Notes under the pieces: generated by a model
What the model saw: only the letters and a program-made list of their open reading frames with translations
What the model was told of the DNA's origin: nothing
Databases searched by the model: none
Position numbers and translations under genes: made by a program
Shown here: positions 10,253 through 64,000 of the stretch, one piece after another
Layout of the letters: the number at the start of each line of letters is the position of its first letter
Position numbering within the stretch: position 1 is the stretch's first letter
Source: Thermoanaerobacter ethanolicus JW 200
GTDB taxonomy: Bacteria; Bacillota; Thermoanaerobacteria; Thermoanaerobacterales; Thermoanaerobacteraceae
Reading direction: 5' to 3'
DNA length: 64,000 nt
Assembly (NCBI RefSeq): GCF_003722315.1
Contig: NZ_CP033580.1
Location: forward strand, 2,198,501-2,262,500

Positions 10253-10473
10253 TAAAAAACCTCTTACCCCGTAAAGAGGCAGAGGTTATCTGCGGTTCCA
10301 CTCTTTTTTATACTCTGGTATTATATCGGAATAACCGTTCGGATTCATCATCCGCAGCTCCGGGGTGGTCTTCGATATTCAGAACATTTGAATGATCTCA
10401 GCCTATGTCATTCAATCTCTGTGATGTTCTTTAAATATCTACTTTCCCCCTCATTGCTTTAATATTTAATTTT
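10253..10473 (-). promoter_or_regulatory. T-box riboswitch, Thr-specific, upstream of thrS
   Basis: The minus-strand leader has the T-box sequence GTGGAACCGCAGAT followed by a terminator with outer stem AACCTCT / AGAGGTT and TTTTTTATTT (about 10253-10287). An ACC triplet (10367-10369, Thr codon) directly precedes ACCCCGGAGC, which aligns with CCTCCGGAGC after TTC in the pheS leader. I read ACC as the specifier. Uncharged tRNA-Thr should relieve termination. Confidence 0.93.
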
Positions 10474-23828: not shown

Positions 23829-25740
23829 ATCGAGTAGGAGCTGAATAATTATTTTATTCAGCGTCCTCTCACACCACCGTACGTACCGTTCGGTATACGG
23901 CGGTTCATTAGGAATTGTGTACAATTAGATATCTTTGGGATAAACTCTTATAACCTATGCTTTCAAAGTATTTATTTGTAAGAGTCTTATTTAGGATTGG
24001 GCTATTGGATATTCTCCAGTAGCCTTTCCTTGTATTGGCGTATTCCCAGGCTTTTTGTTCTTCTACTCCTAGTTTTACTAAGTTATCATGCTTCGTTTTT
24101 ATCTTCTTCCATTGTTTCCATATACATGCCCTTAGTCTTCGCCTTATCCATTCGTCAAGGGTTTTCATTATGCTTTTCGCGTCTGCTAATCCAAAATAGT
24201 TGACCCATCCTGTTGTTATTTGATTTAGTCTTTTTATTCTGTTTTCCATGCTTATTCCCTTGTTCCGATTGGTTATTTCTCTTACTTTTTCCTTAAACCT
24301 TTTGATGGATTTTTCATGGATTCTTATTCTTACTTCGTTTTCTTTTGTATAGAATGAAAATCCAAGAAATTTTCTTCTCCATGGTCTATCTACAGCACTT
24401 TTTGCTTCGTTGACTTTTAGTTTTAATTTGCTTTCTATGAATTTCTTTATGCTCTTCATTACTCTGTTTCCTGCAGACCTGCTTCTTACATATATGTTGC
24501 AGTCATCTGCGTATCGGCAGAATTTGTGCCCTCTCTTTTCAAGTTCTTTGTCTAGTTCATCCAACATTATGTTTGCTAATAGGGGACTTAATGGCCCTCC
24601 TTGGGGTGTCCCTTCTTCTGTTGATACTTTGATTCCGTTTATCATTACTCCCGATTCTAGGTATCTTCGTATTAACTTTAGTACTCTTTTGTCTCCTATC
24701 CGCTTTTCTAGTTTGGACATTATTATGTCGTGGTTTACTCTGTCAAAGAACTTTTCTAAGTCCATATCTACAACCCATGTGTATCCTTCATTTATGTATG
24801 CTTCTGCGGCTTTTATTGCGTCTTTTGCACTGCGTCCTGGTCTGAATCCATAACTGCTATCAGAAAATGTATGGTTGTAGACTTTATTCAGTATTTGGGC
24901 TATTGCTTGTTGTATTAGTCTGTCTAGTACTGTAGGTATTCCTAGTAGTCTTACTCCTCCATCTGGTTTGGGAATTTCTACTCTTCGCACTGGTTGTGGT
25001 TTGTATTTCCCCTCCAGCAGTTGTTGTTTTATGGTTGGCCAGTTTTCTTTGAGATACGGTAGAAGTTCATCTACTTCCATCCCATCGACTCCATGGCTTC
25101 CTTTATTTGCAACAACGCGCTTGTATGCTGCTCTCATGTTTCCTCGTTCTACTATCATTTCAAGCATCTTGCTGGTATATCTTTGTACTTCGTTTCTTCC
25201 ATCTTCCGACGCCGATGATATACTATGCACTTCCGTTGTCTTTTGAAATTCCATTTCTCTATTCAACGGATAGCCTCTTTGTTGAGTTGTCTGCAGTCTC
25301 TGCATATCTTTCGAGTCCATAAGATTTCCAAAACCTCCTAACGTTCGGTCCTTCCTTATCTATTCATGTCTAGATAAGTACTATGACCTCTGCTGACTTC
25401 TCAAGGTTCAGCCATACATCACTGCATGGGTTGTCACTTCAGATTTTACTTCCATGACTTATCCTTGAGACCTCCCCGGGTAAGAACGATAACTTTCATC
25501 TCATATATCTGCCAGATTTACTGTATGGGATTCGGGTAGTGTTGGACTTCGTTTTGTTACGCAAACTCATCCATCCCAATTCAGCCTCTTATCTGGTTCT
25601 TGTTCATCAGACCGAGATTTTGCCTTAAGCTTCCTTCAGATTCCACCTCACGATGGACACCCTTGCTCTTGGCTAGTGGTTCCCACTACCAAGCCCACAG
25701 CGGACTTTCACCGCCTAGTTATCGCCCATGCCGGGCGCAC
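23829..25740 (-). mobile_element. Group IIC intron, complete
   Basis: The minus strand starts with GTGCGCCCGGCATGGGC at 25740, the class C 5' end. The reverse transcriptase gene follows. The 3' end has domain V (ACCGCCGTA ... TACGGTGGT with a CG bulge, about 23860-23895), domain VI (CTGAATAA-AATAA-TTATTCAG) and CTACTCGAT ending at 23829. It lies directly after the terminator hairpin of tRNA-Val(CAC), which is the known target type for IIC introns. Size 1912 nt. Confidence 0.92.
23908..25320 (-). CDS. ltrA: Group II intron reverse transcriptase/maturase
   Basis: 470 aa. RT blocks are complete: GSHGVDGMEVDEL, GVRLLGIPTVLDRLIQQAI, SSYGFRPGRSAKDAI, VVDMDLEKFFDRVNH, EEGTPQGGPLSPLLANIML and FCRYADDCNIYV with the catalytic YADD. 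The maturase (X/thumb) domain follows (WRRKFLGFSFY ... TGWVNYFGLAD). No HNH endonuclease domain is present, as in class C introns. It splices the intron RNA and drives retrohoming. The frame is intact. Confidence 0.95.
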   Translation of the reverse strand: MDSKDMQRLQTTQQRGYPLNREMEFQKTTEVHSISSASEDGRNEVQRYTSKMLEMIVERGNMRAAYKRVVANKGSHGVDGMEVDELLPYLKENWPTIKQQLLEGKYKPQPVRRVEIPKPDGGVRLLGIPTVLDRLIQQAIAQILNKVYNHTFSDSSYGFRPGRSAKDAIKAAEAYINEGYTWVVDMDLEKFFDRVNHDIIMSKLEKRIGDKRVLKLIRRYLESGVMINGIKVSTEEGTPQGGPLSPLLANIMLDELDKELEKRGHKFCRYADDCNIYVRSRSAGNRVMKSIKKFIESKLKLKVNEAKSAVDRPWRRKFLGFSFYTKENEVRIRIHEKSIKRFKEKVREITNRNKGISMENRIKRLNQITTGWVNYFGLADAKSIMKTLDEWIRRRLRACIWKQWKKIKTKHDNLVKLGVEEQKAWEYANTRKGYWRISNSPILNKTLTNKYFESIGYKSLSQRYLIVHNS

Positions 25741-25786: not shown

Positions 25787-25863
25787 TGGTGGGGTTAACA
25801 GGGATCGAACCTGTGACCTCTACGATGTGAGCGTAGCGCTCTGACCAGCTGAGCTATAACCCC
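25787..25863 (-). tRNA. tRNA-Val (CAC)
   Basis: 77 nt with encoded CCA. Acceptor GGGGTTA/TAACCCC, anticodon loop CTCACAT. Identical to tRNA-Val(GAC) at 29237-29313 except for two bases in the anticodon loop. Confidence 0.96.
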
Positions 25864-31242: not shown

Positions 31243-31598
31243 GCATGTGAGCAAGTCTATAAGCCGAGTTCTGTCGAGGATGGCCATCTATCTAGGGGGT
31301 CAGTTGCCTGACACCTCTAGCGGCATAACCCGAGGGAAACGGCGGGCCACCTACTCCCTCCTATTCGCCTTGCTCCAGGTGGGGTTTGCAGAGCAGACCA
31401 GTCGCCTGGTCCCTGGTGAGCTCTTACCTCACCTTTCCACCCTTACCTGGCACTAAACAAGTTGAGTGCCAGGCGGTATATCTCTGTTGCACTTTCCTTG
31501 GAGTCGCCTCCACCGGGTGTTACCCGGCACCCTGCCCTGTGGAGCTCGGACTTTCCTCGTGCGAAATCGCACGCGGCCATCCGACTTACTCACATGCG
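31243..31598 (-). ncRNA. rnpB: RNase P RNA, bacterial class A
   Basis: About 356 nt. The ends pair as helix P1 (GCATGTGAGTAAGTC with GACTTGCTCACATGC). The conserved cores are present: GAGGAAAGTCC near the 5' end, GGGCAGGGTGCC, AGTGCAACAGAGA, AGGTAAGGGTGGAAAGG, GCAAACCCC, and GACAGAACTCGGCTTATAGACTT near the 3' end. The domain order is that of class A (E. coli-like), as in Clostridia. It processes the 5' ends of pre-tRNAs. Helix P12 (CCTGGCACT...AGTGCCAGG) has an unusual arm, see findings. Confidence 0.97.
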
Positions 31599-37844: not shown

Positions 37845-38084
37845 TTATTTAGCCATCATTATAGTCAATACCATAGACAAAATTATAAACAACGCCGCCG
37901 CTATAGTTGTAAGCCTTTCTAATGTCCCCTCCATAGTTCGAGCTTTATTTTTCCCAAAAAATGTTTCTGCTCCTCCTGCAATTACACCAGAAATACCTGC
38001 ACTTTTGCCCTTTTGTAAAAGTATAACTACTATTAAGAAAATGCTAACCAAAATTTGTATAACCATAAGTACAGTTTTTAGCAT
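37845..38084 (-). CDS. secG: Preprotein translocase subunit SecG
   Basis: 79 aa with two membrane helices (residues 3-22 and 53-75) and the Gly/Ala-rich GKSAGISGVIAGGAETFFGKNKART linker typical of SecG. Helps SecYE-SecA drive proteins across the membrane. It sits next to the glycolytic operon, as in other Clostridia and Bacilli where secG follows eno. Confidence 0.93.
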   Translation of the reverse strand: MLKTVLMVIQILVSIFLIVVILLQKGKSAGISGVIAGGAETFFGKNKARTMEGTLERLTTIAAALFIILSMVLTIMMAK

Positions 38085-38171: not shown

Positions 38172-38204
38172 GAGGTTTTATTAAAAAGTGTGTGTCAAAA
38201 GTTA

Positions 38205-38360
38205 ATAGTTGCCCGCCTCCGCCATCCTTGGCTTCGGCCCCGCTTCCGTCTTTCGGTCTCGCTAAGTTTCCCGGCACTCAACTGAACGGGCTGGTCCTTT
38301 CTCTTATTCTCCTTTTTTAACATTTTCGGTTGAGTGCCGGGCTGTCAAGTCGCTTCTCTT
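38205..38360. other. GC-rich structured intergenic element (possible ncRNA or repeat)
   Basis: No reading frame fits. The stretch is much richer in G+C than its surroundings and full of short hairpins. Its main feature is a perfect 13-bp inverted repeat, CCCGGCACTCAAC (38270-38282) with GTTGAGTGCCGGG (38329-38341), 46 nt apart. Beside it lie runs such as TTGGCTTCGGCCCCGCTTCCG. Lies between the eno terminator and the secG promoter. Confidence 0.6.
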
Positions 38361-38410
38361 GTGCAAAATGTCAGCAATATTACCTAACTTATAATTTTAC
38401 ACGGACTATT

Positions 38411-38441
38411 AAAAAAGGGAACCCATTTGGATCCCCTTTTA
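38411..38441 (-). terminator. Terminator of the glycolytic operon (after eno)
   Basis: Minus-strand stem AAAAGGGGA / TTCCCTTTTTT with an inner ATCC/GGGT part; U run follows. Confidence 0.8.
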
Positions 38442-38442
38442 A

Positions 38443-41315
<2,873 letters not shown>

Positions 41316-63788: not shown

Positions 63789-64000
63789 CTATAGGTATTT
63801 TTCAAGTCTTCCAGGATACATTATGATTAATTGGTTTAATACTATATCCCAGTTTTTATACCTCACTGTCCATTTCTTTAATACATTCATTGTTACTAAG
63901 TATAGCATTTTTTCTAATGCTTCATCAGATGGAAATATTGTTTTTGATTTTGTAACTTTCCTTAACTGCCTGTGGAATCCTTCAATTATGTTTGTTGTAT
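63789..64000 (-). CDS. IS256/mutator-family transposase, C-terminal end (runs off window)
   Basis: 70 codons reading TTNIIEGFHRQLRKVTKSKT then IFPSDEALEKMLYLV, MNVLKKWTVRYKNWDIVLNQL and IIMYPGRLEKYL-stop. This is the conserved C terminus of IS256-type transposases (TTN.IE..n..lRk.tk.k..FPsdeal.Kllyl). The frame is open to the window edge. A GGGCTTCGCCC mini-hairpin follows the stop. Confidence 0.93.
   Translation of the reverse strand, partial: TTNIIEGFHRQLRKVTKSKTIFPSDEALEKMLYLVTMNVLKKWTVRYKNWDIVLNQLIIMYPGRLEKYL

Follow-up and report, generated by a model that had tools for sequence, protein, structure and literature searches.

We found that the GC-rich patch between eno and secG in Thermoanaerobacter ethanolicus JW 200 is, to judge from its ends and from orthologous sites in related genomes, an old copy of a mobile RNA element that has suffered an internal deletion. 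The family to which it belongs is almost certainly mobile, and the RNA at its core is very probably TwoAYGGAY (Rfam RF01731). Taken together, we consider it likely that the patch is a degenerate mobile TwoAYGGAY element, that such elements use two chassis, and that complete copies are putative CsrA decoys. What can be read directly from sequence is that the copies are dispersed, that they have transposon ends and target duplications, that orthologous sites are empty and that resident transposases have similar ends, as well as the RNA family and its covarying stems.

Because the structured RNA is flanked by transposon ends, the element would be moved by transposases made elsewhere in the genome. 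In Thermoanaerobacter the first chassis is an IS1182-type MITE, which enters intrinsic terminators and duplicates their hairpin; the second is an ISLre2-type MITE with a duplication of approximately 9 bp, and the eno-secG copy appears to be of this second kind. Here and below, G and L numbers are our handles for genomes and loci, and G000 is the genome under study.

The insertion between eno and secG

The window, i.e. the whole stretch of 64,000 nucleotides that was analysed, covers positions 2198501-2262500 of a 2.91-Mb chromosome in one contig, which was searched whole. Base composition across the window peaks at 59% GC at 38200-38299, against about 26-40% around it, and the patch folds modestly better than its shuffles (z = -2.1 as minus-strand RNA, -2.6 as plus-strand RNA and -3.0 as DNA), so that the high-GC, hairpin-rich island first described between the two genes is borne out. 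The perfect 13-bp stem over a 46-nt loop was read exactly as described: CCCGGCACTCAAC (38270-38282) pairs with GTTGAGTGCCGGG (38329-38341).

Table 1. Features of the eno-secG region, in window positions
Feature	Position	Strand	Basis
secG	37845-38084	minus	
eno	38443-39732	minus	
Whole element, 219-bp degenerate MITE with ISLre2-type ends	38188-38406	minus	Orthologous empty and filled sites; ends match copies L110-L117
Target duplication TATTAAAAA, left copy	38179-38187	.	Single copy at empty sites
Target duplication TATTAAAAA, right copy	38407-38415	.	Single copy at empty sites
Terminal repeat GTGTGTGTCAAAAGTTAATAG (plus-strand reading), right end on RNA strand	38188-38208	minus	Matching ends include ...CTATTAACTTTTGACACACAC in L117
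Terminal repeat GTCCGTGTAAAATTATAAGTTAGG..., left end on RNA strand, ISLre2-like	38371-38406	minus	
Very probable TwoAYGGAY core, 5' half and inner arm	38209-38370	minus	Comparison with complete L002; sister copies match RF01731
Sole remaining ANGGAN hexaloop hairpin, GCC[AAGGAU]GGC	38221-38232	minus	Same loop in sister copies
Internal 72-bp hairpin with perfect 13-bp stem	38270-38341	minus	Present in about one-third of copies, in both orientations
eno transcription terminator adjoining the element	38412-38439	minus	Duplicated in G006 around a fresh IS1182-type copy

When the eno-secG gap was aligned among eight congeners, five (G001, G002, G003, G004 and G005) were empty and three (G006, G007 and G008) were filled by the same insertion. 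Alignment with the empty orthologous sites places the true edges of the inserted DNA outside the GC-rich patch (Table 1). Over query positions 23-181 the window copy shares 99% identity with L002, a complete copy whose locus is also numbered L110; relative to it, the core of the window copy lacks its 3' half, the deletion lying at about 38209. That four Thermoanaerobacter genomes (the window, G006, G007 and G008) have the insertion in the same position might suggest an independent small-RNA gene of this region with a conserved local function. Its absence from the five others refutes such a gene; the insertion is moreover flanked by a target duplication, has lost half of its core and is a copy of a dispersed repeat, and we give a local gene almost no credence.

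Several other features of the window were noted in passing. An IS256-type transposase gene (63867-64000) is cut by its right edge; an identical copy of 1547 bp is found near chromosome position 2526406. The minus strand of 23829-25657 contains segments of group II intron type (RF00029, RF02001, RF01998), close to the tRNA gene at 25790-25863. Two T-box leaders and an RNase P RNA (2172-2387, 10272-10463, 31244-31592) are ordinary.

A dispersed family with IS1182-type ends

Searches with the patch, followed by searches with a sister copy of greater length, recovered the element at 38 loci in the chromosome. The patch is thus a dispersed repeat and not a chance feature: the genome-wide copy count proposed in the original prediction, and its guess of a palindromic repeat, led to a dispersed MITE. 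Among named relatives, close matches were found in Thermoanaerobacter species.

Intact copies are MITEs of 260-335 bp, most of them with IS1182-type ends. In 29 copies both such ends are present (left, CAGACTGTAGACAAA; right, TTTGTCAACAAACTG); one of these copies is only 129 bp long and the other 28 measure 261-332 bp. The stem-loop that brackets each IS1182-type copy varies with the site and is in each case the duplicated intrinsic terminator of the adjoining gene. The whole terminator hairpin (15-40 nt) has been duplicated in 25 of the 29, 17 of these without a mismatch, and flanking hairpins of -6 kcal/mol or better were found in 23-25 of 29 copies compared with 2.3% of control windows. A resident IS1182 transposon, whose transposase matches NF033551 with 492 bits, shares its right end with these copies, differs little from them in its left end and has duplicated a terminator in like manner. 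Since they share these ends and this duplication, we infer that the copies are MITEs moved by IS1182.

Members of the IS1182 family are known to target terminators, and IS1272 has been reported to insert without target duplication, replacing or cutting the hairpin (PMC4923244, PMC5678879). The sister copies resemble this family, which includes IS1272, in having the ends of the resident IS1182 and in inserting into terminator hairpins; they differ from IS1272 in that the hairpin is duplicated in full. The window copy, in contrast, has another set of ends and, beside the eno terminator, only a 9-bp duplication and no hairpin duplication. At the eno locus of the sister species G006 the old copy is joined by a fresh IS1182-type copy, which has entered the eno terminator and is flanked on either side by AAGGGGAACCAATTTGGATCCCCTT. 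Thus the suggestion that the patch might be a transposition target applies to the neighbouring terminator and not to the patch itself.

Three further observations concern the chassis. In G006 (contig C14, about 137305-138549; L073) the two chassis are neighbours behind eno, the older copy being of ISLre2 type and the fresh one of IS1182 type. L050 (129 bp) and L115 (about 80 bp) have transposon ends with the RNA core mostly or wholly missing, i.e. they are empty chassis. In IS1182 copies L061 and L060 the left end reads TTGACA, 17 nt, TATTAT, which looks as though the -35 box of the transposase promoter came from the terminal repeat; the MITE has TAGACA at that place.

Since almost every copy is found at a terminator directly behind a gene and, through the duplication, has a terminator on either side, the element could also be a cis-acting 3' element, that is, a protein-binding 3' end or second terminator which tunes the stability or termination of the upstream gene; RF01731 is indeed filed as cis-regulatory in Rfam. 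However, the first terminator precedes the element, which limits read-through into it, and the targeting of terminators is accounted for by the IS1182 transposase alone (PMC4923244, PMC5678879). Copies also lie in both orientations to genes (12 in the same sense, nine antisense to both neighbours and five convergent), so read-through would miss many of them, and the antisense copies in particular speak against a cis-acting role. We therefore regard a cis-acting 3' element as improbable.

ISLre2-type ends of the window copy

The ends of the window copy match those of L110, L111, L112, L113 and L117, which in turn resemble the ends of ISLre2 transposons (UPF0236). Target duplications of ISLre2-type copies are 11 bp in L115, 9 bp in L117 and 9 bp in the window copy; the RNA core is wholly absent from L115, which measures about 80 bp. 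The transposons of the ISLre2 family in this genus start with ATAGTGTAAAATT. At L116 the same GTGTAAAATTTAAGTAGG end is followed by a truncated UPF0236/ISLre2 gene, while intact elements begin ATAGTGTAAAATTATCG; this fragment is the best match to the window-copy ends among the ISLre2 transposons, and L265 and L271 have diverged ends. The window element is thus like the ISLre2 family in its GTGTAAAATT ends, in its target duplication of about 9 bp and in the presence of ISLre2 transposases in the genome; it differs in having no transposase gene, and its ends are only partly like those of intact ISLre2 transposons.

Two other assignments were rejected. For IS200/IS605 (PATE, omega RNA) there are no such ends and no tnpB nearby, and the target duplications argue against it. 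The IS256 transposons of this genome end differently from the window copy, for which ISLre2 fits better.

The TwoAYGGAY core and its spread

Searched against Rfam at the gathering threshold and at E-values up to 10, the window copy gave chance matches only. The covariance-model search proposed originally was thus of no avail for this copy, which is too truncated to score, but succeeded with its relatives. The best complete copy in this genome scores 40.1 bits against RF01731 (E = 7e-5), just under the gathering score of 43 bits, and a copy from a sister genus scores 40.6 bits. G019, from the same order, has 32 matches of up to 59.9 bits, most of them above the cut-off; G021, G275 (87.1 bits) and others also exceed it. 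In a sample of the phylum, 40 of 398 genomes have RF01731 matches, often several each. The guess of a small RNA is right in so far as the core very probably belongs to a structured RNA family, one already described and not new.

The family occurs in other genomic settings as well. Several genomes of sister genus g2 have a single copy (L135, L136, L137, L138), which could be a domesticated one; where genes were read, its neighbours are a glycerate-kinase-like gene on one side and a ctpA-like protease gene on the other. In these genomes the outer arms also pair, and the place looks conserved. In G153, from another family, four of the five copies fetched have CAGACTGTAGACAAA ends with terminators on both sides and a very different core. 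The copies in G019 have other ends, with 8-10-bp duplications recognised by eye in two of them (L120 and L130). Given the IS1182-type ends in G153 and the other ends in G019, TwoAYGGAY appears to be carried by several MITE chassis. We conclude from these comparisons that the RNA family is MITE cargo on at least two, and probably more, transposon families in Clostridia.

TwoAYGGAY was described in 2010 as a probable RNA that is probably not cis-regulatory (Weinberg et al. 2010, PMC2864571); its Rfam type is Cis-reg. Our elements agree with RF01731 in having two hairpins with ANGGAN loops within a multi-stem fold, in their occurrence in Clostridia and in scores of 40-87 bits in the genus, in sister genera and elsewhere in the phylum. 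They depart from it in that RF01731 has been described neither as mobile nor as repeated, and the window copy is truncated, with one loop. In the literature searched, with most subscription journals outside its scope, there was no statement that TwoAYGGAY is a mobile element, and searches for Thermoanaerobacter MITEs gave nothing relevant. Identity with a described repeat or MITE family, which the original prediction had also raised, was likewise not found there; RF01731 is filed as a cis-regulatory RNA and not as a repeat.

The internal 72-bp hairpin occupies one site but differs in orientation from copy to copy (12 in one direction, four in the opposite, two unclear), which suggests that it inverts between its arms. 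The loops of this hairpin in L002 and L087 are exact reverse complements. Orientations can be seen in the window copy and at L009, L013, L087 and L216; copies without the hairpin have TAACA or similar.

Loop conservation and a possible role as CsrA decoy

When 19 cores from 13 genomes were aligned (50% mean identity), all ten invariant columns fell in the two hairpin loops, CA.GGA.G in the first and GGA.G in the second, and of the 17 predicted pairs 15 have changed in both partners and can still form. Hexaloops are closed by C-G in all cases (122/122). In Thermoanaerobacter the two N positions of the loops are 49-70% conserved compared with 94-96% for GGA. After filtered extraction, 60 of the 81 distinct Thermoanaerobacter cores keep both loops, 15 have lost one and six have lost both. 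The window copy keeps only the first of its A-Y-GGA-Y-type loops; with one loop left it is probably inert, a fossil by itself.

A high-affinity site for Csr/Rsm proteins (CsrA/RsmE) is an ANGGAX hexaloop placed directly on a stem (PMC4005645), and binding of CsrA by TwoAYGGAY has already been proposed from motif matches (PMC4333381). Hexaloops of this form directly on stems number two per complete copy and one in the window copy; G153 and G179 have pentaloops instead. A single csrA gene is present in G000, and csrA was found in all members of the genus that were searched. The G000 protein keeps L4 and R44, and its gene is paired with a neighbour that we take to be fliW. Among genomes with TwoAYGGAY, 39 of 40 have csrA compared with 26 of 40 without it (P = 0.0003 by Fisher's exact test, kinship ignored); in the one exception, G213, no csrA was seen.

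These observations are consistent with a putative CsrA-binding decoy RNA, a reading to which we give even weight. The pentaloops, the random orientation of copies to genes and the lack of a conserved promoter speak against it. Complete copies, where transcribed, would show two CANGGANG hexaloops, bind a CsrA dimer and act as decoys. They would share with decoys of the CsrB/RsmZ type the ANGGAN hexaloops on stems and the presence of csrA in the same genome; unlike those, they have two sites per RNA and not many, dozens of mobile gene copies and a host with FliW-CsrA. The QMITE1 and QMITE2 elements of Coxiella yield small RNAs whose role or target was not reported (reviewed in PMC10969869). The likeness lies in small RNAs from MITEs, and the difference in that a single conserved RNA family occurs here in several MITE chassis.

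Alternatively, the element could be a plain MITE without RNA function, whose hairpins serve transposition as DNA and whose GGA loops are passively inherited. This would agree with the random orientation to genes and with the lack of a conserved promoter: we found none, the lone weak candidate being TAGACA-17-TATTTT in the left end of L018, which is absent in other subtypes. It would also agree with the many decayed cores and with copies such as L050 and L115, in which the ends remain and the RNA is deleted. A plain MITE does not, however, explain why stems change on both sides yet still pair, or why only the letters around GGA are fixed across 13 genomes while the N letters of the same loops are free to vary. 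Nor does it explain why the RNA core is kept within differing transposon ends or why the sister genus has retained it once, at a conserved locus. We therefore think a plain MITE rather unlikely.

Significance

The family outweighs the window copy in interest, as an Rfam RNA without assigned function and labelled cis-regulatory can now be placed on mobile elements. The high copy number of TwoAYGGAY would follow from the mobility of the RNA on MITEs, and many natural variants are now at hand for structure work. The IS1182-type copies add a clear case of terminator targeting in which the entire hairpin is duplicated.

More tentatively, TwoAYGGAY might be a selfish or domesticated CsrA antagonist on several unrelated transposons of Clostridia; every new insertion would then add a decoy gene and so shift the set point of CsrA in a host with FliW-CsrA. 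If complete copies do act as decoys, this would be an unusual case in which mobile DNA spreads a decoy for a global regulator, and CsrA would have a further control besides FliW.
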